Part shown: positions 7,161 through 57,507 of the stretch, in pieces
Layout of the letters: each line of letters begins with the position of its first letter
Position numbering within the stretch: the stretch's first letter is position 1
From: Turritopsis dohrnii
Lineage: Eukaryota > Cnidaria > Hydrozoa > Anthoathecata > Oceaniidae
NCBI GenBank assembly: GCA_027922465.2
Contig: BQMF02000047.1
Coordinates: forward strand, 186,001 to 250,000
Direction of reading: 5' to 3'
DNA: 64,000 bases
Translations under genes and position numbers: made by a program
Notes under the pieces: model-generated
Database searches by the model: none
Told to the model about the DNA's origin: nothing
Seen by the model: the letters and a program-made list of their open reading frames with translations, nothing else

Positions 7161-7934
7161 TGATTCAGAATACCTTCAAAATTTAGTCAATTTCTGCCGA
7201 CTTTTTTTTACCGATAAGGTATACCAATCTTAGTCATAGATCTTTGTTCCAATAAATTTTCAGTATAGATATAATTTTGACAAGATAATGCTCTAATAAG
7301 ATCCAAGCTAGGCATAATAAACTAATTTCTCGCATTTGTTTGTTTTTCGAGGTGGAACTTGACTGGTTATTAAAAAGGTTTCACTGCATACAATTCTATC
7401 TATTCCTTCCAACAGTTCCCCGTTTGTCGCGATAACTGAAACATCGTTGATGTGACGAACGTCATGGCGAACATCATTGACTTTAAAAAGTTTCCAGCCA
7501 CAGGAATTAAGCAAGAATTTTCAGAAATTATTACTCACGAGAATAACAACAGATTACTAAGGTAATTAAACTTGAGTGTGACCACAGATCAATTCGAGAT
7601 AATGAAACAATCGGTCGTTCTCAAACCGCAGTTATTTCCTTATGACGTCGTACCATTACCACACTGCGCAATGAGCGATCATATAACTACCACGAAATTA
7701 AAAAAAATCACCAATAAAACGTTTAACGAGCAAAACAAGTCCGTTTTCCACTTCTGGAAAATTGTCCGTGGACAGAAACGGAACTAATGAATGCTAGAGA
7801 AAGAACTTGATTGGCTTCTTCCGTTTGTTCCGAGGGCTCAACAAATCTGTATTATCGAAAAAGGCCCTGATGTGCCAAGAAAAAATGTTTGAAAATACTA
7901 CCTCTAGATTGCTTATAAAACAGAACGGAAAAAA
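7161..7934. other. No gene recognised
   Basis: Short open frames occur on both strands (for example 7308-7514 minus and 7572-7787 plus). None shows a recognisable motif. It is spacer between the retrotransposon and the next inverted-repeat element. Confidence 0.4.
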
Positions 7935-24600: not shown

Positions 24601-27600
24601 GGCTTTTAATGCCATATCATCTCCAGATTAGTGTAAGGAAATTATAAAACCAGAACAGGAAAGTTGAAAATAATTTCGGTTCTAATTTTTAATAGTTTTA
24701 AAGTATCAAAAACAGAAGGAATGCATCATAGAGTGACAAAAATATGAGAAGCACCATGTTGCAATATCCTATTGTGGTAATTACTTTTGTATTAATTAAA
24801 CCAACAAAGTAAAATTATTGCCTAAATCAAGAATGAATGGAAAAAAAAAAATGAAAATAAAAGAATGATTTCTTGATTTCTTTAAATTTTAGTCTCACCA
24901 AAATGTAAACACAACTTTTAAATGCAGCTGTTACTTCCGAAATAAACCATGGTAATCATCTGTTTTATTGCAAAAGATAGGTTTTGAGGTAATAACAAAA
25001 AACCCTTCATTTCTATTAAAAAACAGTTATTACTATTATTATTATTATCATTCTTTATCAAGTAACTATATCAATCCATGAAAGACCTTTCGTATAATTA
25101 AAAAAAAAATCAAAAATAAAAAGATGAGGAAGACTTCTGGGAATAAAAACCCCATCTTATCCTGTTCACTGTTTCTGTTACATTTGGTATGTATAAAAGT
25201 TGTATAATGTGGATGAATTTGACAGAGGTATTTTTGATACCAGAGAAAATACAGCAGAATGAACTGATAACTTCAACTAAGAAAATTACCTTAACGGCTT
25301 TCTCTTGATATATAATGAACTACAAGTGAAAGCTAAAGGAAACAAACATTATACCTCTTTTCATAGGTTCAAAATTGGACTGGTTGCCATGGACTGTCAG
25401 AGAGTCAAGGTAAATGGTTTTATTTTCTTTTAAAAACATTTAAACCTCAAACAAAAATTAAAAAAACCCGAAAACTGCCAAATAGAAAATCAAGCAGAAC
25501 GTCCCTGCATTGTAACAAAATAATCATTGCTAGTACACTTTTGGTGATAAGGAATGGATAAACAGTGATGAAAATCTTTACCTTTGGATAACAAGATGAC
25601 AAACAAGCTAGCATGTTTCAGACATGTTTCACTCTTGATTGTTCAAAAGGTTTTCGTCAGTAAAAAAATAAACTTCAACTTCTATCAGTTATGTTGATGT
25701 CAGCAATGTAATCTAATCTTGTTGAAAAAACATTTGCTTGGACACTTCATTTTGACAATCTACTTTTACAATGTCAACAACAACTTATACAACAGGAATT
25801 TTACGACAAATCAAGGAAGTAAATAACTTTATTGACATCAAACACCAAATTTCTCCCAAACATTCTTTATTCACACTACCTGCATTATCATATGTTTTTC
25901 TTATAAACAAGTATCAACATCAAGTTGGTCATTATATTGGACAATCAATGGCATTGAACATTGTTGGGTGCCGGAAAATCTGTTTTTATACCCTGGCACT
26001 TCAATCAAGCCAATACCAGCAGCAGATTGTTGTGACATCATGCGTTACCATCCGCATCCTGTATACCAAAGCAACTGGATGGAAACAATCACCACAACAG
26101 GCTTGTGTTTCTCAACAAAGCAAGAGACAACACTTCATGGAAATTTGATAGTAACATTAGATGAAGGTAATTATTTGACATTATAATTATATGTTACTAA
26201 AGGCTGGTAAGATAAGCTCCATAAAGAAATTCATGAAATTTCCCATTTAAATACCAACCTTACAAACCAGAACAATAATAACTGATCATTTCAGATTGCA
26301 GTACTCACTCATTTCATGGACGAAACGATGGGAAAATGGCGTTAACAGAAAAACCCGACTACTGTATGGACTTCAAAGATGGATATAACATTTTATCTGA
26401 ATGTAGCAAAACAAGATATTTACCTGACGGAAGTAAGTTAAGTTCACTTGTGTAACTGTTTAAGACAATGTAACAGACACGCCAACATTTTGAGAAGTGA
26501 AAGAGGGAGATTTCATTTGTGATTTACGGCTATTCGCAGCTTTGTTGTGATGATGCCCATCACATGATATCAGAGGCGGTCTGAGCGCATGCAGACCTGT
26601 ACATAAACTTAACACATGATGAAATTAGGTGACAACAAACAAGAAAAGTGGAATTAAAAAGAACTGATAACCTAAAATAGTTTCACAGTTCAAGGTTTCA
26701 AAAATCAGGAGAAAAGTAGGATATTTCCATAATCGTGCAGGACGTTTTTTTAACGTTCATAATCGGGAGAGTTGGGATGTCTGATATAATCATAATGGGA
26801 GAATTGCAAAGAAACACAACAAAAAATGTAGCTTGTCTGTTTTTAGAAGACTGTTCTTCGAAAAACTTGCTTGTGTCATACCGAGTATCAATCCCGATCA
26901 AACCATCAAAGTTCATTCGAGGCAGTTATTCAATATTCCACTACATGGATAGAATGATATCAGTTGCATCATCAACAATAAATACAACATCAGCAACAAT
27001 TAAGCATAGCAACATGGCAAATCATACATCCATAAAGAAACTTCAAACAACTTCACAGCCGTTTTCAACTAACGTTAGATACAGAGATCACTCCTTTATA
27101 ACGCGACAGAAATCAAATAACATAATAAGTCTTATTCATAAAGATGACAGTCCCACAGCTATTACTAAACAGTCTGGCAGATCTGTCAGCTATCAGCCAT
27201 CAACAACAACTAAAACACAGACCACAGACCAAATCATGTTACACAGTATCACACAGCAGAAACTGAAAAGTAGTCCATCCACACATGAAAATCAATTTAC
27301 AAAAATGTCAGAGTTTGAAAATTTCACTGAAAATTCAAATTTCGTTTCATTTACTCAAAGAATGCAGAATCCACAACAAAGCCAGAAAGCCAAGCACCTA
27401 ACAAGATCAATCCATAAATCCAAATCAACTAACAGTACACAACTTTACAAACAAATTGTTTATAGCCAATCAACCAATTCCTTTCCTGTACAAACAAACA
27501 CTCCTGTATTCACCAGTACAGTACATAACAAGGAGCAAAGAAAAACAATCGCAACATCAATCGAAACAATATCTCAACCAGAATATACTTTAATCAACGA

Positions 27601-30600
27601 ATCAACAGAGAATTATATCCGGTTGAACCCCTCAAGCAAGTTATACTTTGAACAGTCAAGTAATACACCTACGTTGATTGTCTCCAGTCAGTATTCAGGT
27701 GAGATGTCAATCATAAATTATTACCTATTAATTATTTTCTTACCCATTGTGAAGTGTTTTGATCCTTTGACATTTCTTTTAGATCCAACAAGCAGCTTAT
27801 TGACAAAAAAAGGTTTAAAAGTCTTCGGCAGCATCACAAAGGCACAACATAATCTGCAATACACCAGCAGAAAACAAAACCAATCAGAATTGTCACTTCA
27901 TCTGAGTATTTCAACAACAGCAACAACAAACAGAAAGAAGGAAATACATTCATCAGTTTTACTAAAACACAGTTATTCTACAACAAAGAAGCAACAATTA
28001 AAAAGTGTAACTGAAATCGGTTAGTTATTGCTTTCCTCCTTTTACTTTTAAATGTTTGAATTTACAGTTTCTCCCCTTGCCAATAGACGCAAACTTGTCA
28101 CAATGGGCTCCCTGGTCAAACTGTCTAACCAGTTGTGAAGAAGGGGTGCAAGAACGATTCAGACAAAATTGCACAAAACTCAAACCGTGTGACAGATTGG
28201 AAAAGGAAATTAAATCGTGTTTTCTCCAACCATGTCCAGGTACGTTATTATTTCTACAAAAGTGTAACAACCATAAAGAATTGTAATGAAAAAAGTTTAT
28301 TTGGGCAACAAGCATCTAAAATGAAATCTGTTCTAGTAAATGGTGGCTTATCACAGTGGAGTAACTGGTCAGTTTGTAGCAAATCATGTGAACAGGGATA
28401 CATGGTAAGAAAACGTTCATGTACGCAACCCACACCAAAGTTTGGTGGTGAAGACTGCTTAGGTGTGGTTGAAGAAAAAGAAATTTGCAATACACACTTA
28501 TGTCCAAGTAAGAATAAAGTCAAAGTCTTTTCATTAAATGCTACATTGATGATAAATCACATTTCCTGAACACACATCAATTTCAGTTGATGGTGGATGG
28601 ACAACATGGTCGCCATATACCAAATGCAATAAACCATGCAATATCGGTCGAATAATACGCACGAGGTTTTGTACAAATCCAACCCCAGCTAACAATGGCA
28701 AAGAATGTGAAGGAGTTAAAAGTCAAATTAAACTTTGCCATAAAAGAATATGTTACGGTATGATATTTTCAAAAATGAGTTTACAATATAAAATCATAAA
28801 CACAATTTTAAAATCATTAGGTAAAAATTGGGTTTTTTTATTACCAGGTCTAACTTCGAAATTAGTTTTATCGCTGGACCAAAATGAGTGGGGTATTTCA
28901 AACAATCACATATCAACTGAAAAGCATACGAAGATCAAGGACAGTGTGACACAAAATGTAAGTCGGTTTTCATTTGACGGTAGTATTCTTTCAAACGTTT
29001 ATATCTGCCTTACAAGTTGGGTTTTGAATATAAAGATGGTAGAATGAGAAGTTAGATGGTTTTTAGTGCAATTCTAGTAAATTTTGTTTACCTCGCTTAA
29101 TATAATCAACAACAGTGACTGTCTTGTAAAATAAAAAAACTGGTACAAAACTGATAAAGAAGCGGATAATATTCTTCAACATTCAAAATTTAAATTTGAA
29201 AAAATGTTTTTACTCTCAAGATTGAAGAATTCTACAATTTTGCAAACATCTACTCAAATGATAGCAATGTTGCAGTTCTCCAAGATGTCCAAGTCGACAA
29301 AATCAGGTAATGTGCATTCAAAGCATTCGAAAAACTAATATGTGGAATTGCATTGCATTATGGGAAACCAGGAAAATCCTAACATTGTACAATCGTAATT
29401 TTAGTTACTCGAACAGCTCCATAGAAGTATCAGTCTATCTTGAATTTACTGCGTTGGATTCAGGGCAACTGATATTATTGGTTGATGAAATGGAACGATA
29501 TCAACAAATTGAAAAATTAAGTGTTCTTGATTTTAATGTTTCAACTCAATATGGTGAGTTAAATCTTAACTTCAGAAACAAGGAAGAAGAGAAAAACAAA
29601 GAGAGAAGAAAATTAGAAAAATTTTAAATTTTGTACCATTTTTCCACTTAATGTTCAATGCACTATTTTCAAAATTTTGTTTTAGTACCACAAGGAAAAC
29701 CTCATAATCTAACCGGTTATAGTCTGTCAAGAACTGAAATATTTATTAAATGGGAAGTGCCAGAAAAACAAAGAAATTTAACATATGTTGTATTCATCAA
29801 GAAAAGAGAAGAGTCTTCATTGAACTATAATAGCATTGGAACAGACTGCTGTAATGCAACCATTATTGGACTACAACCAAGCCAAAGGTATTGGTTGAGA
29901 GTCTTGGCTTACAATCCACACGGGAATGGAATTCCTAGTAATCACATAGAAATTCAAACAACAATGGGAGGTAGATGTATAAGCAGATGTATAAACTTCT
30001 AAGTTTTCCATAAGAAGTTATCGTTATTTTCTAATTAGTGCAAGGAACAAACAATATAACCTTCATAAGAGCTTATGGTGTTCCTTTTAGCACCTTCTCT
30101 TCCACCACACAACATAGACGTAACAACACAAGGCACATCCATATTTATGGAATGGGACATAGATCCAAGTGAAGTTGATCTAGTTTCTGGCTACACTCTT
30201 CAAATCAAGAAAACTGGAAGCGATTTCAGCTGGGAGTACACAACAGTGCATAGACAATTTTTCCTTGAAGGAATGAAACCATCCACATCTTATATAATAG
30301 ATATTTGTGCATTTACAAGTTTTACTTGTGGACCGAAAGCGCGAGTGACCACAAAAACAAAAGCGTCAGGTTATTTCCTTATTACCACCCTCAAAAAGTC
30401 TATTATACAGTTTTACATAACATTCTAAAAACGGATTGTCGTTGGTACTGTATTTCCTTTCTTAGGTCCAACAATGTCACCTTTAAACATTATGGCTGTT
30501 CCAGTGCTTGGGGAAGGTTCTCTATTAATAAGGTGGCAACATATCCCAAATGATGAAGTAAACGGAGTATTATTACATTATGTAATATCCTACAAAAGAT

Positions 30601-33600
30601 TTTCACCACAGTCAGACATAACAGATCACCCAACACTGACTATAAATGTATCAAGCCGTGTGAATTCAACTAAAATCAGCAGTTTGGAAACATATCAGAC
30701 ATATCAAATAAAAATGTGGGGAGTAAATCAATATGGCTTTGGAGAGAAGTCAAAATCCATCATTGCTTGTAAGGCTCTAAAGCAAGTCAATAGAAGAGAA
30801 TCCCCCCAAAATCTAAAGTTTTGGTCTAATTCAGCTAAAAACTATGTTCGAAAAAATACAGAGAATATCGGAAAAACAGAAAAACGATAACCATATTAAT
30901 CTTGTTTTTTTAGCCACAGACAAATGTCCAACACAAATAAATACGAATTATGTCAACCTTCACCCCTACATATGCATTGGTGAAAGATATCAATGTTTAT
31001 TCGAGGAATTGATAAGAAATTTTACTGGCGAAATTTGTAGTTATGATTTATCAAGAAATAAAAACCTTCTTAACACCATCACCAACGGCAAAGGTGGTTG
31101 GGCAACTAAGTCTGATATTTTATTAATGAAAGCAGACCTGAATCACGATGTTGGTGAGACTGCTACTACAACAGATCTCGTTATAAACTATTAAAAGTGG
31201 TCAAATCAACAAAAATCATTGTTTGTTTATTTTTAGATTTATCTTTTCCTGTCAATGCAAACAAAGAAGTTCTGTATTACGCCCAAGGTCACTTCATTCC
31301 CATAATTGAGCATCCTGGAGTAGTTGTGATTACGGCCAAAGAGGAAACAGAACAAGTCATTAAAAGAATGTTAAGCGCCATTGTAGGATGTTGGCCAATT
31401 CTGGCATTTAACGTCTTGTTAATCATCTCATCAGGAATTATCATGTGGTTCATAGTAAGTCCTCACACACAATTTTGGGTATATGTTATTTTTATGGTAT
31501 TCCTTATATTAAATCCCACTGTACATGTATCAACTTTTTGAATGCTCATTACATTGGTTCTTGGGGGCTACTATCTGTTATTATCTTTGGAAACAAAGTA
31601 AACCAAATTTGGCTTTCATTACAGGAGAGTGGGCAGAACAATGAGGACTTTCCACAACCATTTGTACAAGGTGTTTTAAATGGTATGTGGTGGTCTTTTG
31701 TGACCAGTGTTACATTGGGATATGGGGACAAATGTCCAAAAACATTCCAGGGACGATTGTTTGGAATAGTTTGGACAATCATTGGTATCATAACTGTGGC
31801 AACGCTTACTGGCTTGTTGACGTCATCACTCAATGCTTATAACGTCAAAACATCATTTTCGATTTATGGAAAAAAGGTGTGTCTAACATTGCATTTTTAC
31901 AAAAATTTAATCAAAGCTAATAAAATATAAAAGCAAATGGAAATTAAAAGACATCAGATACACCAAAAATTCTCCAGAACTTTAGTATAGTTCTGCTAAA
32001 GCTGATTTTCCTTTGAGACTAGGTATTAAAAAGTATTGAAAGTCATCTTTAAAATGTGAAAAAAAGATATCTTTATGAAATACTTTAGGTTGGTGCATTA
32101 TCAGGATCAATTGGATATAAAATAGCAGTGAGAAGAAATGCAAAAGTGAATGAAGGTATGTTAGAATTAATGACAACTAATCATTCACGTTTATTATTAT
32201 TATCATGTTTATTCATTAATTCATCATCATTATCATCTTTCCTACAACAAGAATTTCAAATAAATGTCATGAAAAAATGAAGTGATAAGAGTGATCACTG
32301 TTCCCCGGATTTGATGTTTACACACGTGTTACAACAGGATACAAATTGAATAGAAAAAGACACATAAGTTTTATTCCACATAATAGTTTTCAGCTGAATC
32401 AAAATTAAGTGTATAGACAAAGTTTGAATGTAAAACACAGTTCATAAAAACCACAATTACTTTCAAAATTTGTAAAAGGAAATCGTTTGAATTCATTAGT
32501 ACTTTAATTACTTCGACAGCTTTTATTTTAATAATGTTTAAGATCATAGGCTTATAGTATACAGATGTTTAAAAAAATAATTTTTGTTTGGAATTGTTTA
32601 TTTTGCAGACCACCAGTACTTAACAATATCTGAACTTATTGAAGCACTTGAAGCAAAACAAGTTGAACACATACTTGTAGATGCATTCACCGCAAAGTCA
32701 AACAGGAAAGTATTAACACACCATTCCTTTCTTGTATCCAAAGTCATAGAGGAGCGTTCAATGTATGGCTTTGTAGCATCATCAAGGCTAGGCAGATTTT
32801 CATCAATGCTCAGGGAATATGTCAAATCAAATCAGGGAGCTGTTTACAGGGCATTAGAGGCATACTCAACTCCTATAAAGGTATGTAATACAAGTAAAGT
32901 TCTCATCCAACAAGCAACAGATTAATGAGCAAGCACTTGAAATGAAGATCAATTTAAGAATACACATTATCCCTTCCATGGATATTTTTAGGTTTATCAA
33001 GAAACAACACAGGTGGTGTCACTATTTAATAATGAAATCAGTTCATTCAAAATGTCTATTCAAGTCATGGGCTTAACACTCTTGATTGCAATAATGTTTG
33101 GGGTAATTTCCTACCTCCAGCGTAGAAGACAGGTGCAAAAAATTGATCCAAGTAAGTATAGGTTTAATGCTGAAGTTCTTTCGAAATAAATTAAGAGAAT
33201 GCGATTAATTTGATATGGGGTTATGCCTTGAATCGATCCTTCTACTTCCTGTTTTGAATAATAAATAATAGTCTACAATTTTTATCTTTGTTATTATTCA
33301 GGAATATCCATCAGCAAACTGAAATTATACAATGACTTGATAGAGCTGCATAAGGAGATTAACTCAACAAAAGCCACACTAGAAGCTGGCATCAACAAGA
33401 TCGTAAATGATTACATGCAGTATGGAAAAGTACCAATACGGCACAAGAATGTGAGTTTGAATCAAAATGATATGAATCAGTTTATGGGAGTACAAAACAA
33501 AGTCAAAATGAACAAAGACAACAATCAAAGTATGACCATTGAAATTCCCGATGAATTCTTCTTACTATCACGTCAAGTGAAAACAGAATGGGACACAGTT

Positions 33601-36600
33601 CCAAAATGGTTTCTGATGAACAAATACGACATGAAGAAGAATGGCTACGATTAATAGTGGTCCAAAAAGCACCATCCAAGAACATAAAACAATGTTTCGG
33701 TGACACAAAACTGTAAGATAAAAATTTGTAAACAAAACCACAAAACATACCTTAACAGGAATGAGAATATATTCCATGGCCATTTTTAAACTTGTTCTCT
33801 TAATTCGTTTCATTTTCTCATGAAATACTGCAAACACAAACTGAAACTGGTGGCAAATGTATGGATTTCAAAATCACAAGATCAGAAAAAAATACAAGTA
33901 ACTAAAATTAACTGATAAGACATCCTATTTGTATTGTTGGTTGGAACTAATGAGTTGATTGCGTTATGTCATTAAACTAATCTTAACAAAAGGTCAGGTT
34001 ATAATTAGCATGAATTTGAAAGCACAACAAGGAAAGTTAATTATCTAACAGACACGATACCGAACAACAACACAACAACGTGTTAAGTCAGTTCAATTAA
34101 TAAGTCTGAAATAAAGATGTTTATCAAAACAAAAAATAAGTACAACAATATAAGAATATAGAATTGTTATTGTAATTTTGGGGATCAATGCTCTTATGGC
34201 CAAAGAATGGATTTTTTGTTTGCTGTGACAATCTTGAAACAAAAACAAAGATACTGCCTGTAAATCAAAATAATCATTACAATACTCATAAATCATTAAT
34301 TCATTTCTGTAATTTCAACAATTACTAATAAGTTATGTAATATGGTTTTCCACACTAGCTATTATATTTGATTGTTGGTGAAAAAGTAACGAAAACATTA
34401 AAGTGTTCCATTTCAACAATAATCATCATGGTACCTCTACAATGATCTTATAAAAGTAATTGGTAAGGGACATAGAAACAAAATTATTATACCTGTCTCT
34501 TTGATAAGCTTCCCTTCAGGAAATCTCTGAGGCCTGGACTGGGAGAAAGGGCTGCTCCCTCACTTTTTCGTCGAAATGTACGTTTTAATCCACTAAAGAA
34601 GTTTACGTGCTGATTCTTACTCTCGCTTTGTTCAACTGTGTTGTTTTTGAAGTTTCGAATTGGTACAGGAGGTTTTCTACTTTCCAGACGAAGAGAATTT
34701 GTTAATGAATATCTAAATATAAAATCAGATCAATCACAGAACCTATACACATAAAAATACACATAATTTGAATGAAACAATGCATTTTTACCCTTTCTGT
34801 AAGCTATTATAATGCTTCGCCACATTAGTGCATGCCCTAAAGGATAAAGAATTGGATAAAACAGTAACTAAAAGTAAATCAACAATTCCTCACAGATCTT
34901 AAGGTCAATAAGCATGTGCAATATACTATTCAGGATGGAAGATTGGAATGAAAACTTATTTGTCAATATTAAATTCTTTGGAAGCTCAACACACTTTATG
35001 GAACGCCTCATGTACTGCCAACATCAAAAATAAAATAATCAAAATCCCTTACTCTGTATCTGGAGCAGATTTTCTTCGTCGGGCTCCATCACGAGGGTGA
35101 CTGTGATAGTAATCACTAGAAACAGATAGATATTTCATTGCCAATGTGTTTGAAGCAACTCTAAGAATCAACTCTTGAAGAGTTCCCCATGTTAATTAAA
35201 ATTCCAATGTTTTTGAGAGAAATATATATGTCAAAAATCCACCTGTTCTTAAGTCTTGTTTATTAACTCTGCATTATGAAGGTATTATGAGTAACTTAGC
35301 CAAAACATGATAAAATGATCTGCTTGATCCGAAAGCATTGTCATAGTATCAAATTCTATTTCTGTTCTTGTAATTTTGAATAAAATTTCTTCGTTTCTAA
35401 GGACAGGGCATTTGTTTTTCACACTCATAGAAATGTCTGATGTAGCACCATGCAAAAAAGACTGAATAAGAAGTGTTAATCATGATATAAATAAAACATA
35501 AATCACAAAATCGTCTTAAAATGGCAGATGGTTCGGGACAACTCCTATGAAACATCATAATAAGTATTTAAATGATATAAAGAACAAACAGATACCCTAG
35601 TTCCATGAATAATTTTACAAACACACAGAATTATGTGTGCTTCTGAGCTATTTTTCAAACTGGTCGAATGAAACTTGGTTGAAATATCAATCATCCATCA
35701 TAATCACCATGTATGTAATGAAGAAACACAAAGTAGGAACTTACAAGATTGATAGAGAACACATGTTTCTCAGTACAGGAAAACATTGATTGTCAAAATA
35801 ATTATGTTAGAAAAACAGTAAGGAATTTGTGAAGATTAGTAAACAGAAAGATGTAGACAACTACCTAAGCCGTGGTTATTAGTGGACTGGTGTTTCAATC
35901 TTTATCAAGGTTTCAATATTATGTCATAAAATTTCAAAACAGGTTTAAACATGGCCATAAATCAATGTTTAAACAATAAGTGATTTTAATAAAAAGCTTC
36001 ACAAAAGCCTCACACATTTTTAAGAAGGAATTAGATGGTTTGAGAAAGTTCAAAGAACCAAACATGCAGAAGTAATGGAAATCAGTTCAGTTTTCCAACA
36101 AAGTCACAATTATTTGCTTTTTGATTAAAATCAGATGAATGTGAGTTTATTGTCAGATCTTTAGGTACTGCATTCCAGTTTTTAACCAGTTAAAAATTAA
36201 CCATCAAACACTGTTACAGATTAAGTGTTGAGAAATTGCTGGCTATAGTAAACAAAAACATTATACCGCACGCCATCAAAACTTTTTCTTCTATTACTGC
36301 GTTGAAAAAATCCAGATGAAACTGTTGAAAAGCTTCCCATTCCTCAATAAAAATTTATCAAGACTTGTTCATCATACTGTTACTGAAAACTGTTTGATTT
36401 AGTGTAAAGATATTTTTTCAAAAATATTTTTTCACATGAATGAATGATGGTAGAAATCATGACATTCTCTTTTTTCTTATTATGAAATTTACCATTCATC
36501 AATTTTGTCATACATTTGTTTATTTTTCACGGCTGATAAACATAACTTCAGCAAAATAAACAACCAATTTAATTCAACACAACTCAAAAAAACCACATGT

Positions 36601-39600
36601 ATCACTTTTGGCCCACAAAATTGTACATCTTGCAATATTCATAATCATTTACAAAAACCTGACTCTCAAATGTCTGAAACACTCACAACAACTGTGATTG
36701 AAAGTGTTCTTATGAAGAATTTTGATATTGTTTGCATCAAAAATAATTGGCAGCTCCGATGAAGATTATTTATTTTCCTGTAGCCTTTTAAAAAGAACAA
36801 AAAAAAAACATTCAAAAAATACCCTATACTATACTATACTTAAGTTTGAAAATGTGTACTTTATCAGAAGAAATTCCATAAGCTTGTATTTTTTTAAGCA
36901 TAAAGCTTATAAGCATACTGAGGATGAAGATGCTCAAAATTTTTAGCATACCTGAAGGATAACACAAGCCTGCAAAAAACGTAAGCATTATATATTATAC
37001 TAGGCTATTTTTTCTAGATATATACTGAAAAGTTAAGAATGTCCAAAAAAACCAAAACAAAAAACAAGCATTCTAATTTTTTTTTATTCCTATGTTGATT
37101 GGTCCAAATCTTTAGCTTATTTCCAAAATTTCAGGATTCAATAACATTTTAGCATTTTTCTTTCACTTTCATTTTTCACCACTTTTTTTATCTTTTATGA
37201 TTTTACATTTAATTTCATTTGTTTGTTTGATAAATAAATGTTGGTTTATTTTAGCCTCGTTTGGATTGTCCATATTTCTGGAAGTTTGTGGGATATTGTT
37301 ATCAGTTATGATTTTGATCATATATATACCTTTTTATGCTAAATGCTGACATGGACCTACAACAACAAAATTTAATATGTACCCTTTCATTATATTCATG
37401 GAGTGTTATTTTTACACACACGTGTACCTGTCACAAAACTAAAATTAAAAGAAAAGCAATCAAATCAAATTTTCAATTAAAAAAGTTTAGAAACAAGAAA
37501 AAACTGAAAATAGAAACAAAAAACTGAAAATGAAAAAGGTAAGAAAAATAAACAGTTAAAATTGAAAATGAAAAAAAAAAAAATAAAGATAATTATAAGC
37601 CATCACACAGGTGGGACATTGAACCATGGCTTCCTTGATTGATGTGTTGAGCAAAAAAATCAGAACTTTTTGATCCCATTGATATATCCATATGGTATAG
37701 TCTGTTCACCACATTTATGGCCAAATCATTAGTTTCAGTCTGATAAGCTTTCTCATTAGCACATAAATTAAAAAATATAAAACATAAAAAATATGACCAT
37801 AGTATGTTTTAAAACGAGGGTTGAACATTTTTTCCATAATTGCTACATTGTGTCCTTTAAAAAACCTTGTTCTTTTGAAATAAGTGTTACATTGAATGTA
37901 TTACTCACATTTCATCGAAAGCCTATTGTTCTTATAATTTCATTAAAACAACTTATGCACGGTGCTTTAGTATTCATAAATTATCTACGATGTGTGTATC
38001 CAACCTTCTGAAAATTCTAAAAGTTCAGACATAAGAGTTAGCTTTATTTATGATAGCGATCATTAAAGTTTGAAAGGTCACTGCAGCATTCAGCCGTGTT
38101 TGTACATGAATGTAGTGAAGAAACTATATAAAGATATTTGTGGTAAAAGAAATGGAAGCCCAAAAGTATTTGTATGACCAATGGAATTTTACTGGTCATA
38201 ATGGGAAGTTGTTCGGTAATTTTGTTACCCACACCCAAATTTAAAAAAGTTTATGAAATACCTATCTTCATTTGAATCACTCTCTGCATCTTTCTGTGCT
38301 TCAATTTCTTTAAGAATTTCACGTTTCTCCTCCTCATTTAATCCAGTGAGTGATGAAGGTGGATTTACCATTAACTTTTTTGTATCTATTGGAGAGCTAC
38401 CATTGAAAGAATTTCCACGTATACGTTCCAATGTATTTGTTATTATTGTCCTTTCAGGGGATGATGAATATGAAAGTGATTTTGCTGGTGAAGCTGAAGA
38501 ATTATGAAAAAGACTTTTCCTGCAAATTAAAACGAATTGTCACTTAGAAGTTTTGAATTACACAAACAGAATTATAGGATGTTCAAATAGTGCATCCTTT
38601 TGTCTTTTGTGGTTGAAACAAGAAATCACACTGGAATTCAAGGACAAACCCACCTTTCCTCATAAAAATTATTCAATTCATGCAATATGTAAGATGATGA
38701 CGTAGGGAAAGCTGAACATCCCTGGAATTTGGTAGCTGGTTTGCATGAGAGATCAAATAATGCAGCACTACCAATATGTGCATCATGACTCACCAAATTT
38801 AAGTCAATCATAAAAACATGACAAGAACATAAAACAACATTACGACCTTTTGATATTACTGGCGAATTTGAATGATTAGAAGACATGGCAGGTGACTGGT
38901 CCGATAGCACCTTACGGGTTACAAGAGCAAAAAAACGCTGGTCATCAGGGCATATTCCACTAAAAACCAATGTTCGCAGTGGATACGTAACAATCTCTTT
39001 CCCTAACGGATTGGAAAGCTTGACACCTTGAGAAGAAAGAGTCAATAGAACCAAACTTCTAGATGATTTGGAACTACGTTGTATTTTATAAACACAACTG
39101 TTTAAGGTGTTTAAGCTTGCTGAATGAAGATTTTGTGCATTTGGGATTTCAACAGTACATTGGTAATAAACTACCACATTATAAGGGTGCGTTCGTATAT
39201 GGCATTCACTTTTAATGGGTGTTAGTTTTGAATTGATGCCAATCTGTGCTAAAGATTCTACATCTGTATTTTTTTCAATACCAAATAAATTGGATAGATT
39301 CAAGGCATGTCCATTCTGTAATTGATTATCAATCAATGTCTTGGAAGAATTTGGTGGTGAACTATCTATCTCTTTTATTACTCTTCTTTTTGATAAACTT
39401 GTAATATCATAACGTCCTTTTTCAGTTTCTGTGCGCAAACATAATTTCTTATGGTTAGTAGAACAGGTATCAGCCAAGCAATTGTTACTGCCATTCATTT
39501 CACATTTATGTGGTGTAGCTGGACTTCCAAATATAAGACTAGTTCTTCTTGCTCCCTTAACAACTCGATTGATACTATCAAATAAGCTATTTCGTCTGTT

Positions 39601-39882
39601 GACAGTCTCACCAGGAAACTGTGTGTTGGAAAATGTTCTGACAGTTACATGGATAGATTGTGAATCATAAAGTAAAATTTGTTTAACAACATCATCATGT
39701 TTAAGTTCTGCTACATCTTCATCATTCACTTTAATGATTTCATCACCAGGTTTTAATCCAGCCTTGTCTGCTGGTCCATTTTGATTTACAGAACTGACAA
39801 CGCATGGACCTTGACTTGACAAAATAAAACCTAAACCATGCTTTCCTCGTTGAATTGTCATTCTCTTAATAATAGGAATCAT
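9606..39882 (-). CDS. RGS12: RGS12-type regulator of G-protein signalling (PDZ-PTB-RGS-RBD-RBD-GoLoco)
   Basis: This is a scaffold that speeds GTP hydrolysis on Galpha-i/o and links it to Ras-MAPK signalling. Exons read as 39882-38654, 38519-38262, 35115-35053, 34836-34792, 34712-34493, 20685-20658, 14461-14307, 14203-14117, 14015-13869, 13710-13576, 13492-13414, 13337-13296, 13139-13048, 12117-11935, 11840-11767, 11614-11491, 11379-11289, 11212-10949, 10804-9606. All phases match, giving 1504 codons. Domains are PDZ (about residues 7-85), PTB (230-408), RGS (643-768, with [18 protein letters not shown] and [13 protein letters not shown]), tandem Ras-binding domains (861-1017), GoLoco (about 1106-1128, SGRLDDQRG) and a Ser/Thr-rich tail ending ITFV, a class I PDZ ligand. 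PDZ plus PTB separates RGS12 from RGS14. Length is close to that recalled for vertebrate RGS12. The start is the Met just before the PDZ. The exon at 11212 could instead begin near 11248 in the same phase. Confidence 0.93.
12450..12865. repeat. Short inverted-repeat element in an RGS12 intron
   Basis: The sequence GGACCTTGCGAAACTACGAC near 12473-12492 recurs inverted at about 12845-12862 (GTCGTAGTTTCGTAAGGTCC), with ACAACAACGA-like sequence inside each arm. The arms are about 30 bp and the interior is AT-rich. It looks like a small non-autonomous element. Confidence 0.5.
14600..15154 (-). CDS. Uncharacterised 184-codon open frame within the RGS12 intron
   Basis: An uninterrupted frame with its own ATG lies 139 bp upstream of the exon that opens the RGS domain, on the same strand. 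The composition is protein-like: an amphipathic Glu/Arg-rich stretch (about residues 28-55, including [16 protein letters not shown]), an acidic linker and a His/Tyr-rich region (about 105-145). I do not recognise the family. I see no signal peptide and no membrane segment. No internal splice donor in the phase needed to join the RGS exon was found, so it is more likely a small nested gene or retrogene than an RGS12 exon. No polyadenylation signal is evident downstream. Confidence 0.45.
   Translation of the reverse strand: MVYENSFQNLMECYEEKSRKTSSPAVLEHIFESEEQRIHYEAEKLLREIRAEIKYAESFPEYGNYFSTFPWEDTADTNLPVVEESGDDDVFPDPPNVSSTGGMNYKLLHYYPHTFNDLKQGLLGHHILAKHYLKYVQNYLINSPHHREPVCIKEVSEDYYISRLRLLLINFLSVVKNLQIRFCF
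16136..16316. repeat. Hairpin-forming inverted repeat
   Basis: Arms of about 40 bp (16136-16176 and 16276-16316) are near-perfect inverted complements around the core CTGAAATACATTATACATTT. They are separated by about 100 bp. It could be a miniature element or the arms of a folded intronic RNA. No coding content. Confidence 0.65.
17432..17479. repeat. Two tandem copies of a 24-bp unit
   Basis: Two adjacent 24-bp copies beginning TGTTGATATGTCAATCAAAG differ only at the last base. It is a small intronic duplication. Confidence 0.8.
18178..18258. repeat. 11-bp tandem repeat (TCGATATTTCA / TCGATACTTCA)
   Basis: About seven head-to-tail copies of an 11-bp unit alternate between two variants that differ by one base. 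Each unit carries ATCGAT. Because 11 is not a multiple of 3, any peptide read through it shifts frame, so it is not coding. It lies in an RGS12 intron. Confidence 0.9.
20183..20240. repeat. Two tandem copies of a 29-bp unit
   Basis: Two identical adjacent copies begin TGTTAACCTTTAGTATATGT. This is a recent intronic duplication. Confidence 0.85.
20658..20685 (-). other. RGS12: 28-base microexon of the RGS12-type gene
   Basis: The 28 bases are bordered by acceptor TTTTAG and donor GTAAGA on the minus strand. The upstream exon (34712-34493) ends in phase 0 and the next (14461-14307) needs phase 1, so an exon of length 3n+1 is required. This one fits and reads [10 protein letters not shown] across the junction, joining the basic linker to the segment before the RGS domain. 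It is isolated by introns of about 13.8 kb and 6.2 kb. The call rests on splice consensus and phase only. Confidence 0.65.
22411..22547. repeat. Degenerate 27-29-bp tandem repeat, about five units
   Basis: Successive units share the core CCATATATTAGATACGATGA and vary in length by 2 bp. The array is intronic and not coding. Confidence 0.8.
22578..22667 (-). other. Candidate alternative first exon of RGS12 (short isoform)
   Basis: Two in-frame ATGs start a 30-codon segment with a hydrophobic or amphipathic N terminus ([20 protein letters not shown]) and a basic end. It is followed by a strong donor (GTACGT) in phase 0. The next downstream minus-strand exon, the 28-base one at 20658-20685, accepts phase 0. 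A transcript starting here would make an RGS12 lacking PDZ and PTB, like vertebrate short forms and RGS14. There is no direct evidence that it is expressed. Confidence 0.35.
23489..23694 (-). other. Orphan minus-strand exon candidate
   Basis: A 206-base open segment is bordered by an acceptor (CTATAG) and a strong donor (GTAAGT). It is open in the frame entering in phase 1 and leaving in phase 0. It encodes a Cys-containing peptide with [14 protein letters not shown] and [16 protein letters not shown] do not recognise it. The entry phase does not match the neighbouring RGS12 exon, so it belongs to an alternative transcript, another gene or no gene. Confidence 0.25.
25124..33654 (+). CDS. TSP1/fibronectin III receptor fused to a glutamate-receptor-like potassium channel
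   Basis: Exons read as 25124-25186, 25367-25409, 25912-26166, 26295-26432, 26847-27698, 27783-28019, 28087-28239, 28337-28507, 28587-28757, 28848-28957, 29221-29306, 29405-29553, 29686-29970, 30091-30369, 30466-30768, 30914-31153, 31237-31454, 31625-31876, 32089-32155, 32609-32880, 32992-33151, 33302-33654. All phases match, giving 1618 codons. In order: signal peptide (1-21); Cys-rich head (22-167); Thr/Ser-rich stalk (167-529); TSP1 repeats (530-580, 581-637, 638-695); SEA-like region (695-810); fibronectin III domains (810-904, 905-997, 998-1098); ligand-lobe S1 (1099-1224); TM1 (1225-1251); re-entrant pore with TLGYGD (1281-1286); TM2 (1294-1318); lobe S2 (1336-1460); TM3 (1470-1490); cytoplasmic tail. 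The order S1-TM-pore-TM-S2-TM is that of ionotropic glutamate receptors; the filter is that of potassium channels, as in GluR0. It probably acts at the cell surface. The first two exons are the least certain. Confidence 0.85.
26847..28019 (+). other. Ser/Thr/Gln-rich stalk exons of the channel gene
   Basis: Two exons (26847-27698 and 27783-28019) encode about 360 residues dominated by Thr, Ser, Gln, Asn and Lys, with few hydrophobic residues. This looks like an extended, O-glycosylated, mucin-like stalk that would hold the Cys-rich head away from the TSP1 repeats. The first exon follows a strong pyrimidine-rich acceptor ending TTTTTAG, which decides its start despite the frame being open further upstream. 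Confidence 0.7.
33655..34492. other. 3' flank of the channel gene inside the RGS12 intron
   Basis: About 840 bp separate the channel stop codon from the nearest opposite-strand RGS12 exon. A candidate AATAAA signal lies at 34110-34115 on the plus strand. Nothing else is recognisable. Confidence 0.4.
35116..38261. other. RGS12 intron, no further gene seen
   Basis: Intron between the exons at 38519-38262 and 35115-35053. It is AT-rich with poly-A and poly-T runs. Plus-strand frames (for example 36505-36762 and 37336-37527) are short, Lys/Asn-rich and lack splice support. Confidence 0.5.
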
Positions 39883-39975
39883 TGTGCATAATGAACTTCT
39901 TCAGAATTTACCTCGTTGAATTGTTATTGTCTTATAATAGGAATCACTTTGCATAATAAACTTCTTCAGAATTTA
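39845..39975. repeat. Tandem duplication covering the RGS12 start codon
   Basis: Two adjacent copies of about 66 bp (39845-39910 and 39911-39975) share most positions and both include CTTCTTCAGAATTTA. The copy nearer the gene carries the ATG and first codons of the PDZ-PTB exon. The outer copy lies in the presumed 5' leader and carries a short upstream reading frame of about 17 codons that ends before the main start. Confidence 0.85.
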
Positions 39976-42202: not shown

Positions 42203-45200
42203 TCACGTGAATTTCTCTTGCACCAGTTTCAATTCTTCGATGAGATCGAGCAGTTTGACAGCAGGTCCTAGCTTAAATCCCATATGGCTGAGTACCAAAT
42301 CACGTTGGAGAAGCAACAAAGCTTTTCCGTCGATCTCCTAAAAGGTTAGGATTACTTGATTCGTATCCTGTACATTAAAATTATTATACTTATCTCGAAT
42401 CTCTCCAAATTTGACAACCAGTCTAAGGAAAACTCAAAACTAACAACTGAATGCTTTAACTTACATTTTCTTTGAACTTTTCAATATAATCTTTTAAATC
42501 TGTTTGAACAACGAAGGCAGTGACGTCATCTATGCTCCATAATTTTGGAGCAGTAGTAACCTCTATTCCACCAGCTAAAAGAATAAAGATCGTTAATGAA
42601 CAAAACAAACCAAATCATGCATTATTGCTACCAATAAGTATTGGTATTGATGAATACCAAAATAAAATATAACGAAATAACAGCTTGCTTTAATTCTATG
42701 AACTCAACATCAAGTTACTACCGATCTTCTTTTCCGTTTTCTTCTTTTTGCTAGCTGGTTCCTCAAACCCATCAACATCTACAGTTATTTCTGGTTCGTA
42801 ACGGCTGTCGCTCAAATTGCCTTCCCCACGTCCTTTGCCGCCATTATCTTCACGCGAATGCTCAAAAACCGAGTCGGAGCGCGATATACTCGATTCGGAT
42901 CTTGGGGCGAGGTACGAAACCATTGAATATGAAGAAGTTTCATATGTTTTATCTCTACGGTGAATGTTTTTATAATAGTCCAGATTAGTTGGTCCAGAAG
43001 AGGATGTTCGGGTCCGTGAAATTGATGCAGCAGGTTGTGAATATGATTGGCTGTTAGTTCTTTTGGCTTGTTGAATGATACTATGGCTTGAGCGATTGTT
43101 AGAGCATCGTCTACAGGAACGTAAGTCAGTACTTGAAAACAAGTTACTACAACACCTTAGATTGTCCGAAAACTGCTCTAGTACTGTCCAAAACTTTGAG
43201 ACACGATCCACGCTATTCAAACAACATTGGTAAGTCACTCCGTCACATAGTGCCGTTATAACACAATTTCCACGACCTAAATATGAATGATGGAAGCTTA
43301 TGGAATTAACTGCCAACACAGAAAAAGTCACCAACACAATTTTGTTTCGCTCTTACCTGGTTTCAGGAACCCAAATACAGTTTTGGGGTCGGTGGCGCAT
43401 TTGATCGTATCTTCCAAAATGTTTTTTAATACTGATACGATACTGCCACGATAAACTCGAGGTAAACGTTCAAATTTCTGCGCTTCAATGTATGGCCCAC
43501 AAAAGCAATCACCATTCACAAACACTTCAACTGCAATAACAAAAGAAACGAAAGTCAACAAGATCTATATAGCAAAAAATGATAGCAACCATACCATGAA
43601 TAAAAACATCAATAATAATGAACTCAACCGATCGATCGTTGTTCAAGGTTCACCTTATGTTCTTTTTGGATCAATGATCAACTGACCCCATTTTATTCGG
43701 ATGGATTACATGTTTAGTTATTTCGGTTAGCTCTACATGTTTCTTTTTATAAGCAGCACTAGTAACTTTTCTCAAAAACTTAAGCAACAGTACTACAAGA
43801 ATCTTAGATGAATAAGCAACATACAATTTTGAAACGATGAAACACTAGCATAGCCACAGCACATTTCTTAAAATTGTTACACTATGTTGTTACACTAAGT
43901 TGTCGGACTAGGTTTTACGCTCTATGTAATGATTTGAATGTCCTAGACTTTATACTTGGTATTTTTAATTAAACAACTAAAACGTTTTTCAAGGTTTTCA
44001 AGATGGGACATATATGTATTATCGATTAATGCTTAGCAACAAATTAAGCAACATTACTACTAAAAAATGGTCATTTTTTAAGCAACATTACTACTAATGT
44101 CTGACCTTGGTTGCTTATAAAAAAAACGTGTACTTCACTATTATTTGAACATTCAATTCAAAATTTACATATTTACAAATAAAATATTTACAAACGCAAT
44201 TAAGTTCTACCATTCTAATCCTGCTAAATTATATATTATATACTATATATTATACACTATATATACTATACAAACAACAAATACGGTAACTCACCGTTAT
44301 TAGGCAAGCTTAGCTTGTCTTTCCAAGTGCTTGTGCTACTGACACTCTCCCTCTGAGCTGGCAACGAAATACTGTTACGAAGAGGGGCACTTGTTTGGTT
44401 GGTGTTTTCGCTAGAAACGTGTGGAGGAGAGGTAGATCTACCTTGACTTCTTGGTAAACTAAAGAAATTCGCGAATTTTCTTTTGAATTTGAAAGTCATT
44501 CACTCAATTAAAACTGATGATCAACATCTCTGATAGTGATGTCCTCCATGTAACATATAAATAAAAAGGTTTTCACTGAAAATGGTGTTTTCTGATTGGT
44601 TCTCTGTCATGCGAAGTGATCTCTGATTGGCTCTCGTGCATGAGAAAAAAGTTTAATCACTCAAAATTTCGGTTGGCCTTATGTAGGAAACCTTTCATGA
44701 ATAAATTATGGTCAGTACTAAAACTTTAAAGAAACTCTTCTTTTTGGTATGGAAAACTTTGAACGGAAGATTGTTTTAAGTGGTCCAATATAGAACGTAC
44801 CTTGTTGATGTTTCATCGTTTTTGGTTTCTAAAGAAAAATATTATTAGATTTTCAAAGACACACAAAATGATAATATTGATCAGCAGTTCGATTCCTATG
44901 TGAAAAGTTCAACATGCAAAAAAAAAAAAAAAAAAAAAAAAATAAAATATTCATCTTTGATAAGAAGTAATCCACAAACCAGGTGGTGGTTGCAAATGGT
45001 GATCAGCCCGACCACACCAGCCAGCCGGAAAGAGGTCCCGGCTAGCATAATGACACCAAAACCCAACACCTTTATAACCGTCAAATTCGATTCTTAATTG
45101 TTCGCCATCCACATTGACAACCGTTGCTACACCAATAACCGATGGCTTTTGACGGTTCACTGCTTCTAGCTTCATTCCAGGACTAAAGTAGTTCTCCATT

Positions 45201-48200
45201 GGAATTGTGGGTTCCTGAACCAACACGTGAAAATGCTCACAATACAGTCCAGTTAAAAAACAAGAGAATGAAATGAACAAGATACCTTTTTGAATAGCCT
45301 TGCAGGAGCAATATCGGCAGTGTGAAGACTCGATGCGAAGAAGTTGCTGTAATGTGCTGTATCAAACTTGAAGCCTGAAATTAAAATTCAATATAAAATA
45401 TGACATCCAAACTGAGTAGATGAAAATCCTTTGCCAAGTCTAAAATCATCAAATGTTATTTAGCACCAATGAGGATATTTTTCTCGAAAAGCTTCTGCTA
45501 ACTTTTAATAAATAAATATCTCGTCTTCTTTTTTTTACATAGTGACTCAATCGATTATATCGTTTATCTTCAATAACTTCCGCACTTACAAATAACATTT
45601 TGCTAAAGCAAATGATTATCAGTCCTTGTGCTTCTAACAGCATTAAAGAATTGAATTTCTTACCAACAGGTGGACGAAGCTTCGATCCGTCCGTCCATCC
45701 AACGGGGTGAATGTCACCAGAATCAGGCATTTTCCACACATCAGAAGACGTGTCCGCACCATCGAAATGCAACAACATTCTTGAGCCTTGTATAGCAACG
45801 ACTGTAGCTAAACTATACAACTTTGACCCGTATTGCTCATTGACAGATGCTTCGAGTTTCATGCCAACAACAAAATTGTTTTGAGGTGGATTACGACTCT
45901 ATAATTAGAACTCTACAAATCAACTTCAAGTTTATCAATATTTTAACGAACCACTAGTTATTTTTAGTGAGTTTTCATAGGAGAATCTATACAAAATACT
46001 TATATCCCTAAATATTTCACAGAATGTTATACATTATATTGTAATATTGAATAATAATATTGAAATGGTAGACCTCTCACACTTAGTAAAACTTCTAATG
46101 CAGGTAAAGTTTCTCAGCTTTTTTAATTGTATAGCAAATGTTTATTTTTACATAATTATTGTCAGAAATCTGCTACAGTGAATAATTGCTAATCACTACA
46201 GTATGTGTTTGCACCTTTATATGGTAATTACTTTTGCAACTATTAATCTAATGTAAATAATACGATCAGGAACCTGTTTGAAATAAATCCATGGTGCGGC
46301 TGTGGCTTGGGTTTCAGTCAGGTAATGATCCCAATTGAATGTTAGACTACTTGCTAAAGAAAATTATCAATAAAAAAAAAATATGCTAGTATAAATTCAA
46401 TGCAATTTACTTGATCGAAGGATAAAGACTTACTTGCAACACTTGCAACAGTACTGTCAGAAGCCGGAGAATACCTCACATCATCATGGTACGCTAAAGT
46501 TGGTCGGGTACTTCTTACATACCTAGGCTTACTACTACCACCTTCAACGCTACAAATCTGCTTTACCGCTTCATTAAAACACTTCTCCGAGCACAAACCG
46601 GTACAATAAATTTCACGTCCATCTTTAACCGTTGAAAAATCTTGTAGGTATGATCGAATTTTACACCAATGACAGTAACCAGACTGCCCCATAGAATTAG
46701 ATTTTCCACTTTCTTGAGTAGCCTTTCCTTGTGCAGGTGATTGAGGTTCTGAAAACAAGTTATATGTCTTATTAGAAGAGTGAAAGGGCTTGTGACAGCC
46801 ATTAGCACGATTAATGCCAAACTCACCTATTCTTAAATTGATATTTTCAACAAATGACAGCAGGTGGGCTGAAAAAAGAAACTGGAAAAATGGAAATAAG
46901 TCCACGTAGGATCTCAAAAAACAAAAAAGACAGATAAGCATGATCGTTACCTGGAGTTTTCTTTTCTTGCATCCAGTCACGTTTCGAAGATGGAAGGTTG
47001 TAATGAATCTGCATAGCTTCATTATATTCTTTCATATCTTCTTCATATTGGTCTTCCCAAACCTAAAAAAAACCTCAAAACTGATGAATAAACACACACA
47101 CAAAAAAAACATGTCAAAAATAAAAGACTATGTGGAGAAATGTTAAACTGGGAAAAGCAAAGAACTTTTTAGATTTTCACAATACAAGTAAAAATTAATC
47201 TTTTCTGAAATTTTTTCCCAGATCGCAGAGGTGCACTACGAACTGAAACAATATCAACACAGGAATATTGTTAAAGATATTGTTATTATCAAGTGACATT
47301 TTCATTAACCAATCAGATTTCAATCAAATCGTATCATTTACCGCTTAACAATAACTAACACTTGAAATCATCCCGATAGTTACACAACTTCAAACAATTT
47401 TTGGGGGGATTAAAAGATGTTTTTAATTGCAATTTTGCAGATAGAAAAGAACAACATAAATTATTTATAAAAACATATTCCAGCAGGTTTTTTGCAACAA
47501 CATCATGGTGTATATTCATTTTCATTTAGTAGTATCATTTAACATCATAAGCAATGCTTTTCCATGGGGATTTGAGGTTCAGAAAATTAATATTTTTACA
47601 TAAGATTCAAGTTTTAAAACAGACGAAAAGTTCCAAGTTCCAGTCTGTTCCCCTTTTTCTTATTTTTTCCTGTTTTCACTTTTTTCAAAGAGAAGCTTAT
47701 GTTTTAATGTTTAAGGTGCTACGGTTGTAAGTCACAAGCCATCATTACTGAAAATCTCACAGTTGATGAATTCAGAATTAGACTGCAGTGTTCTGTTGTT
47801 CTGATACTATTGTGATGCATAAATGTTTTAAGCATGCTATATATTATGGAGGATAGTCGAGATCCAGACAACTGATCAGTAAGAAGCGGTTAAACAACCG
47901 ATAAAGACAGTAACATTCTATATTTATGATGGCTTTTAGAAGTGTAAAAATAATTCTAGTTCAATAGTTGAAAAGGAAAACAGATGCGGAAAAGTTAAGA
48001 TTTTACTGGACCAGGATAATGTTTTTTTCTTTGTAAATTCTTATCTAAAAATACTTTAATTCCACAACAACTGCTTATTAAGAAACTATATGATTTTGTG
48101 AATGTAAAGTGATAAAATGTTGACTTCCTTTGTAATTGAAAGTAATTTCAAGAATCCTCAATACAAACTTAATCCAAAAGTTAACAAATGAATGTATCAA

Positions 48201-56239: not shown

Positions 56240-56405
56240 AAAAGCGATTTATCGCTGCAAAAAAGCGATTCATTAGAAGCGAAAAAGTGATTCTATTGAA
56301 GCGAAAAAGTGATTCAAGTGAAGTGAAAAAGTGATTCACGTGAAGCGAAAAAGTGATTCACGTGAAGCGAAAAAGCGATTCATGTGAAGCGGAAAAGTGA
56401 TTTCG
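56240..56405. repeat. 21-bp tandem array GTGAAGCGAAAAAGCGATTCA, left
   Basis: About seven imperfect units vary mainly at the GCGAAAAAG/GCGGAAAAG and GATTCA/GATTCT positions. The unit equals seven codons, so open frames through it are artefacts. Confidence 0.85.
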
Positions 56406-57507
56406 AAATCGATTTGGAAGATATATAATAAGAAGAATAAAAAATGATTCGTAAACAAGAACCAAATGGTGAAAAACGGTATTATAAACTGGCGCAATAA
56501 TATGAATAGATACAAAAACTAAAAAAAGATTTTATTTTTAGACTAAAGGCTGTTTTCCACTTTTGGAAAATTAATGCGGAAAGAAACGGACGAATACTAG
56601 AGAAAGGACGTGATTGGGTCTTTCGCTAATGTAAACGTAGCTTAATTAATAACCAGAATTTATAACAAAAGAAATATACTTGCATGAGCTGCAAAATATA
56701 ATTTTAAAGACAAATGTGCGCCAAGAGAGAAAAAAAATATTTTTCGAAAAGAAAATTAATGTAAACAAAAACTTAAAATCGTTGCTATCGCCGTAATAAG
56801 ATTGTTTACATCGTAGATTCCATGTTTCATGTATGTGACCATCCAAGGGATTTTGATGTCAAACGATATAAATAAAAAAAGTAATGGTATTTTCTTAGAA
56901 TATGAAAAGTAGGATTCACCTACTCACTACGTTTCGTTCATTCAACGTCTGTGTATGTTTATATTTTTCATATTCCCATGCGCCAGTTTTCGAAGTGGAA
57001 AGATAACCGGGAGTATTATATCTAATTGCTATTTTGCCAAATAAAAATAAAAAGTTCATGAAAAACATTTTTTTCATTGATAAAGATGTCTACACTCTCA
57101 AAAGATGTTGTTGTTATCGCGACTTCAGCATTATTTTGAAAACTCAATGTGACGGATGTATAATTACAGGTAGCACGCGTTAGTGTTTAATACTGAACTG
57201 ATTACCTGGTTCTTATTCAGTTAGAGATTAAGGAAACAACAGTTTGTTCTCAAGTTGCTACAAATAGAAACCGTCTGCTATAATTCTTTTGTGTTTAAGT
57301 TGTTCTACCGCTTTTATGTGAAATGAACGTGGTTCACATTCACTTTAAGAAAAAAGACAAAAAATGTTTGTTTTAAAGCTATTGCCAATAGGAACCGTCC
57401 CTTATGATTCTTTTTTGAGTTGTTCGATCGTTATTTTGGTATATTCCTTGGGGGGAATGTTTATCAGAACTTTAATCAACACTTGAGTGAGTGATATAGA
57501 ATCAAAA

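Follow-up and report, generated by a model that had tools for sequence, protein, structure and literature searches.

Glutamate-receptor relatives with a K+-channel signature have so far been described from bacteria and, among animals, from a single rotifer protein, as far as the retrieved passages of the literature extend; the receptors named there are GluR0 and AvGluR1, and in the same passages the metazoan phylogenies of ionotropic glutamate receptors (iGluRs) leave a cnidarian K+ family unmentioned (PMC12226733, PMC12332018, PMC2950845, PMC6307864). AvGluR1, from the rotifer Adineta vaga, is presented in excerpts of these sources as an iGluR-like animal channel bearing a K+ signature (PMC12332018) that resembles bacterial iGluRs and is amino-acid gated (PMC12226733), while an excerpt of a further source reports the membrane orientation of GluR0 as opposite to that of a canonical K+ channel (PMC13099474). 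Here we analyze a 64,000-nucleotide stretch of the Turritopsis dohrnii genome (C47:186001-250000, from a 435.9-Mb assembly of 891 contigs; hereafter the window), in which a forward-strand gene at 25124-33654 is modelled to encode a GluR0-type K+ channel behind an ectodomain of TSP1 and FN3 domains. No description of such a protein was found in the titles and abstracts of the open-access literature, among the matches listed.

Several known systems resemble the predicted protein in part. Animal iGluRs of the AKDF, NMDA, Epsilon, and Lambda types have, as is predicted for the window protein, a split ligand-binding domain (S1 and S2), three membrane segments, and a pore loop, but differ from it in filter, agonist arginine, and amino-terminal domain. 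Insect Ionotropic Receptors (IRs) are likewise iGluR-derived with altered ligand pockets but keep cation-channel pores, and in polycystin-1 type proteins a channel-like membrane part bears a large ectodomain of adhesion type, although both that membrane part and the modules are unrelated. The bacterial comparison is closer, as GluR0 of Synechocystis (slr1257) and its relatives have the M1-pore-M3-S2 order, the K+ filter, and a pore sequence in common with the window protein. Relative to GluR0, which has two membrane segments, the window gene adds M4 (residues 1464-1492), the adhesion ectodomain, and introns, and lacks the agonist arginine. AvGluR1, compared by description only, likewise comes from an animal, is iGluR-like, and bears a K+ signature, but differs from the window protein in being amino-acid gated, and a TSP1/FN3 ectodomain goes unmentioned for it in the available excerpts (PMC12332018, PMC12226733).

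The 22 exons of the gene join into a single frame of 4857 nt, or 1618 codons plus a stop, with an AG acceptor or GT donor at every internal border and consistent phases throughout, in exact agreement with an earlier note on this DNA. Across the exons the coding frame contains one stop, the terminal one, compared with 104 and 102 in the other two forward frames, and for the 852-nt exon alone an open frame arising by chance has p ~5e-9, although both statistics are somewhat overstated because the exons were picked for being open. Exons 3-10, 13-17, 20, and 22 start in phase 1; each of the three TSP1 and three FN3 domains constitutes one phase 1-1 exon, and exons 10-12 jointly form another 1-1 block. 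We regard the resulting architecture of the 1618-residue protein, as modelled, as very probably correct.

The predicted extracellular half opens with a 21-residue signal peptide (exon 1, 25124..25186), the sole signal-peptide-like first exon recovered by a simple scan of 24.5-30.9 kb that fits the phase of the next exon. Exons 2-4 (25367..26432) encode an N-terminal region of no known domain (residues 22-166), which includes most of a Cys-rich stretch (residues 28-169) that was absent from the earlier description and gave no match in a Pfam search. Exons 5-6 (26847..28019; residues 167-529) form a stalk recognized by composition, with Ser and Thr making up 31%, and Ser, Thr, and Pro 35%, of residues 201-529, compared with 19% Ser and Thr in the whole protein; no tandem repeat array was found in these exons at the default score. 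The earlier label of a mucin-like stalk is generous, and a Ser/Thr-rich stalk describes the region better. The three TSP1 and three FN3 domains were recovered above Pfam cut-offs in a search of the joined protein, with TSP_1 (PF00090) matching in three stretches (E=2.2e-23, 82.7 bits, cut-off 21.6) across exons 7-9 (28087..28757) and fn3 (PF00041) in three stretches (E=1.7e-23, 83.1 bits, cut-off 25) across exons 13-15 (29686..30768). The intervening exons 10-12 (28848..29553; residues 695-809) gave no Pfam match above cut-off; they resemble a SEA domain by eye only, with no SEA match in Pfam at E up to 10. A periplasmic-binding-type amino-terminal domain was not found by Pfam, and in its position stand the TSP1 and FN3 domains, which are typical matrix- and cell-surface-binding modules.

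A phase-1 intron (30769..30913) separates the last FN3 exon from the predicted channel half, which comprises the first part of the ligand-binding half S1 (exon 16, 30914..31153), the end of S1 with M1 (exon 17, 31237..31454), the pore loop with M3 (exon 18, 31625..31876), the substrate-binding-protein lobe S2 (exons 19-20, 32089..32880), the end of S2 with M4 (exon 21, 32992..33151), and a cytoplasmic tail with the stop codon (exon 22, 33302..33654). Hydropathy delineates three segments at residues 1222-1254, 1291-1322, and 1464-1492, corresponding to M1, M3, and M4, so that the predicted order behind the exon 1 signal peptide is M1, pore loop, M3, M4, with the orientation taken from the family. 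The selectivity filter reads TLGYGD, the joined protein matches Ion_trans_2 above the Pfam cut-off (E=1.5e-11), and the pore matched many K+ channels in a sequence search. Given this filter sequence, K+ selectivity is predicted with considerable confidence.

To place the channel half, a GluR0 profile was built from 17 bacterial GluR0-type proteins picked from 32 matches. With hmmsearch, the window protein gives a single match of 111.3 bits to this profile, running from M1 through the filter and M3 into S2, and with hhalign a probability of 99.5% (E=4.3e-22 over 173 columns); a line common to the bacterial proteins and the window can be written as N-E-x-F-P...G..NGMW...VT...GYGD..P.T..G. A second profile, composed of 23 intronless relatives from the same genome and the window core (24 rows), aligns with its GluR0 counterpart along 295 columns that extend from S1 into S2, including the part of S1 encoded by exon 16 (probability 99.9%, E=1.2e-35). 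With the pore removed, the family S2 still matches the GluR0 S2 (97.3%, E=1.7e-11), compared with E values of 0.13-0.74 in five column shuffles. By these sequence criteria the channel half is GluR0-type rather than a canonical glutamate receptor, and is closest to bacterial GluR0. The "glutamate-receptor-like potassium channel" of the earlier note holds for its K+ filter and, through profiles, for S2, but not in the sense of a canonical iGluR. Lig_chan reaches 24.0 bits, under its cut-off of 30.8 bits. The accompanying picture of an animal iGluR with its amino-terminal domain exchanged was not borne out, since the nearest kin are GluR0-type and have no such domain.

By sequence, the window gene is one member of an expanded GluR0-type K+ channel family, in which those read whole are mostly bare channels. 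The genome contains at least 144 Ion_trans_2 matches (150 of 214 candidates scored), and as only stretches around part of them were read, family counts are lower bounds. At least 25 members are intronless, comprising 24 distinct open frames at 119 bits or more and one further frame in locus L068. All but one of the 24 were read whole (405-494 residues), L018:8961 running past the end of its stretch, and none of these 23 has an adhesion ectodomain. A signal-peptide-like start was visible by eye in 22 of the 24, the exceptions being L030 and the cut L018:8961. GYGD is held by 24/24, and the column that is Leu in the window filter is Val in 23/23 intronless relatives aligned and in 17/17 GluR0 rows. 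Every one of the 24 rows of the family profile matches Ion_trans_2, Ion_trans, and Lig_chan in Pfam (E<=0.01); one row also matches a phosphonate-binding protein and one, weakly, an inward-rectifier family. Contigs C86, C139, C120, C220, and C34 carry clusters of these intronless K+-type genes, which look like a lineage-specific expansion. A recent transfer from bacteria is considered unlikely in view of the introns, M4, and the large paralogue family. Canonical iGluRs are also present, with 49 Lig_chan matches that include K+-type members (ten loci read), and the genome holds NMDA-like iGluRs and several intronless Kv-like genes. Among the loci inspected, L009, L012-L014, and 19 of the 20 loci L035-L054 proved to be other channels and were dropped; L049 is a family member.

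Nine loci, L010, L011, and L069-L075, contain intron-bearing relatives with about 3.3-5 kb of sequence upstream of the pore; L011 is a near-copy of L010 and L074 of L072, and L075 contributes a second pore exon only. In a pore tree of 111 columns, drawn without a long Kv row and seven rows of canonical iGluRs, L010 and L069-L072 form a group with the window at 86/94; this group is sister to the intronless group, which includes L073, at 94/88, followed by GluR0, with Kv outermost. A first pore tree, which included those seven canonical iGluRs, had set them apart from the K+ types at 99/96. Introns also link the window gene to L010, in which five introns were modelled (before S1, within S1, between M1 and pore, within S2, and between S2 and M4). 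All five have same-phase counterparts in the window gene by eye, exactly at M1/pore and within about 4 residues elsewhere, although for two of them a phase-1 border was chosen other than the top-scored splice site. The window gene has two additional introns, one separating M3 from S2 and the other following M4. A different intron splits the filter codons (TTVG|YGD) in L071 and L072, as modelled, and visibly in L069, L070, L073, and L074, but is absent from the window and L010.

The sequences upstream of S1 in these relatives differ from gene to gene. In L071 (C353), all four exons scanned upstream of S1 (L071:67-1216) are EGF_CA modules (E 8.5e-11, 6e-8, 2.4e-9, and 8e-11). In L072 (C126) and its near-copy L074 (C4), all four exons scanned matched CUB, two in each locus representing the two ends of the domain (E 1.2e-6 and 2.1e-4 in L072; 8.1e-7 and 1.8e-4 in L074), followed in both by an Ig match under the Pfam cut-off. 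The EGF exons of L071 and the CUB exons of L072 can be joined to S1 in phase 1, the L071 donor being of middling quality, and in L010 (as modelled) and L011 a signal-peptide exon can be joined straight to S1. A phase-1 intron therefore precedes S1 in all four modelled genes, and what lies across it is FN3 in the window, a signal peptide in L010, EGF in L071, and CUB with a weak Ig in L072. When the interval between modules and S1 was scanned for signal peptides, no candidate was found in L072, and L071 gave one poor phase-1 candidate overlapping an EGF exon in another frame and a weak one, by eye, at the S1 exon. L072/L074 also have two signal-peptide-like exons, one in phase 0 that lies upstream of CUB (position 1334 of the joined stretch) and one in phase 1 (position 38). 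The shared phase-1 intron is consistent with exon shuffling into a single docking intron, and in the intron-bearing branch the outer modules appear to have been shuffled into this intron, between signal peptide and S1.

Taken as one gene, the locus would encode a type I membrane protein in which a signal peptide, Cys-rich region, Ser/Thr stalk, three TSP1 domains, an unassigned domain, and three FN3 domains precede a GluR0-type S1-M1-pore-M3-S2-M4 cassette with its K+ filter, followed by a cytoplasmic tail. Four subunits would form a K+ pore, with the tetramer and its orientation taken from the family; because S1 follows the signal peptide in most members, the pore is expected to have the glutamate-receptor orientation. 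The TSP1/FN3 array may anchor the channel to matrix, to glycan, or to an adjacent cell, and binding or pull could be passed to the S1/S2 clamshell, whose closing would open the pore and hyperpolarize the cell. We consider the explanation as a whole, a single-gene GluR0-type K+ channel with a shuffled adhesion ectodomain and a link to contact, reasonably likely. Of its functional parts, anchoring by contact has about an even chance of being right, and gating by contact or by a non-amino-acid ligand is somewhat more doubtful. The earlier suggestion of a channel that matrix, carbohydrate, or cell contact gates or positions accordingly keeps the standing of a hypothesis.

Several observations weigh against this explanation. 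The gene model is drawn from genomic sequence, the window pore is 36-41% identical to its nearest kin, its branch in the 111-column tree is long (1.18), and the first pore tree left the window and L010 unresolved against GluR0 and Kv. The S1 assignment comes only from the longer family alignment, because S1 by itself does no better than a mismatched control: family S1 against GluR0 S1 gives E=0.014, compared with E=0.0077 for mismatched S2 against S1 and E=0.076 for a second mismatched control, family S1 against GluR0 S2. Joined S1 and S2 returned nothing in a PDB sequence search up to E=10 and no ligand-binding-domain match in Pfam even at E=10; we attribute these empty single-sequence searches to the divergence of the window sequence, as profiles succeeded for S2. 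A predicted structure of exon 20 alone reached a pLDDT (predicted local distance difference test) of 49 and was not used. In a database of 5.8 billion proteins, whose animal content is uncertain, the channel core drew 3834 candidates with none at E<=0.001, and for region 1096-1501 of the whole protein there were 3110 candidates with none at E<=1, which we do not take as absence. The borders before S1 in L010 and L071 were not always top-scored in the splice scan. Finally, outer modules were recognized in only three of the nine intron-bearing loci, equivalent to two distinct genes; in L010, L011, L069, L070, L073, and L075 none was recognized in a light check, consisting of Pfam on one frame each of L069 and L070, TSP1/FN3 profiles on L069-L075, tblastn with the window protein on L010 and L011, and inspection by eye.

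The alternative that survives best, although we consider it rather unlikely, is that the adhesion channel is an accessory subunit that co-assembles with its bare relatives, placing or tethering mixed channels and itself contributing little to gating. Subunits of iGluRs and K+ channels commonly form mixed tetramers, at least 25 intronless relatives share the cassette, and the window filter departs from theirs at the single Leu/Val site described above, all of which would suit such a role; the pore sequence of the window protein nevertheless looks complete.

An ordinary amino-acid-gated receptor, in which glutamate or a different amino acid is the ligand of the S1/S2 clamshell and the modules merely keep the channel in position, is improbable. 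Both AvGluR1 and GluR0 are described, in the excerpts available, as having a K+ signature and amino-acid gating (PMC12332018, PMC12226733), and the Asp of the window protein (also present in L010) aligns with the lobe-2 acid of GluR0, D311, a position occupied by Asn in 17 and Asp in 6 of the 23 intronless relatives. The S1 arginine that binds the agonist carboxylate, however, is present in 17/17 GluR0 rows as well as in L055, a canonical iGluR with Gln at the filter-aligned column, but in none of the 25 animal members aligned (the window, L010, and the 23 intronless relatives), the S1 alignment being uncertain. The window residue at this column depends on the alignment, Val in the alignment and Asn by eye, with no reading giving Arg, and in two intronless members an Arg lies three columns ahead of it. 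Given the absence of the agonist arginine, amino-acid gating is not indicated.

It is more improbable still that two adjacent genes have been wrongly joined, with exons 1-15 coding for a TSP1/FN3 protein, secreted or anchored, and exons 16-22 for a bare K+ channel. Such a division would agree with the 23 intronless relatives read whole, all of them bare channels, and with the frame of exon 15, which stays open for about 40 codons beyond its donor; moreover, the joining in the window and its parallels in related genes are models drawn from genomic DNA. Against it, a simple hydrophobicity and donor scan of 24.5-30.9 kb, covering the separate start near 30.9 kb that the earlier note had named as contrary evidence, did not reveal any other signal-peptide exon whose donor is in phase 1; the candidates were exon 1 itself, in phase 0, and two phase 2 exons at 24744 and 24756. 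Upstream of exon 16, the in-frame ATG begins a hydrophilic peptide rather than a signal peptide, and neither AATAAA nor ATTAAA occurs between 30768 and 30914, the interval between exons 15 and 16. The phase-1 intron before S1 in all four modelled genes, with EGF and CUB modules joinable to S1 in the same phase, also argues against two genes. The signal-peptide scan, the hexamer check, and the parallel module genes thus support the earlier proposal of one gene with an adhesion ectodomain before a K+ channel. Least likely of all is a decaying or alternatively spliced locus that mainly yields a secreted TSP1/FN3 protein and rarely or never uses its channel part, for which the same genomic basis of the evidence can be cited, but against which stand 22 exons without a stop or frame break and an intact pore, S2, and M4.

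The single-gene adhesion channel seems, in addition, to lie inside another gene. Exons on the reverse strand between 9609 and 39900 resemble RGS12/14, with a PDZ and PTB exon at 38641-39900, an RGS exon at 13737-14078, and a GoLoco exon at 9609-10838, the PID and GoLoco matches being below Pfam cut-offs; this arrangement suggests that the channel gene is nested, on the opposite strand, in a large intron of a putative RGS12/14-like gene. Elsewhere in the window, reverse-strand exons at 42699-45898 with SLED and two MBT repeats (Pfam) mark an Scm/SFMBT-like chromatin gene, a reverse-strand open frame at 6402-7175 looks by eye like the end of a LINE (long interspersed nuclear element)-type reverse transcriptase, with no Pfam match at E<=0.01, and two arrays of a related 22-base tandem repeat lie 1.1 kb apart at 56260-56402 and 57506-57668.

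One animal genome thus holds at least 25 intronless K+ types and, alongside them, an intron-bearing branch with at least three genes whose upstream adhesion modules differ from one to the next. We tentatively propose, without considering it the likelier case, a class of adhesion K+ channels in this animal lineage, probably the Cnidaria, in which a GluR0-type cassette with a phase-1 docking intron took up exchangeable TSP1 and FN3, EGF, or CUB/Ig modules and lost amino-acid gating, such that contact with matrix, prey, symbionts, or neighbouring cells might lead to hyperpolarization. If expressed as modelled, the window gene would couple cell contact to reduced excitability directly, within one protein. 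It would also be a clear example of receptor diversity being built on an ion channel by exon shuffling, and would bring fresh evidence to the origin of iGluRs from K+ pores and binding proteins.

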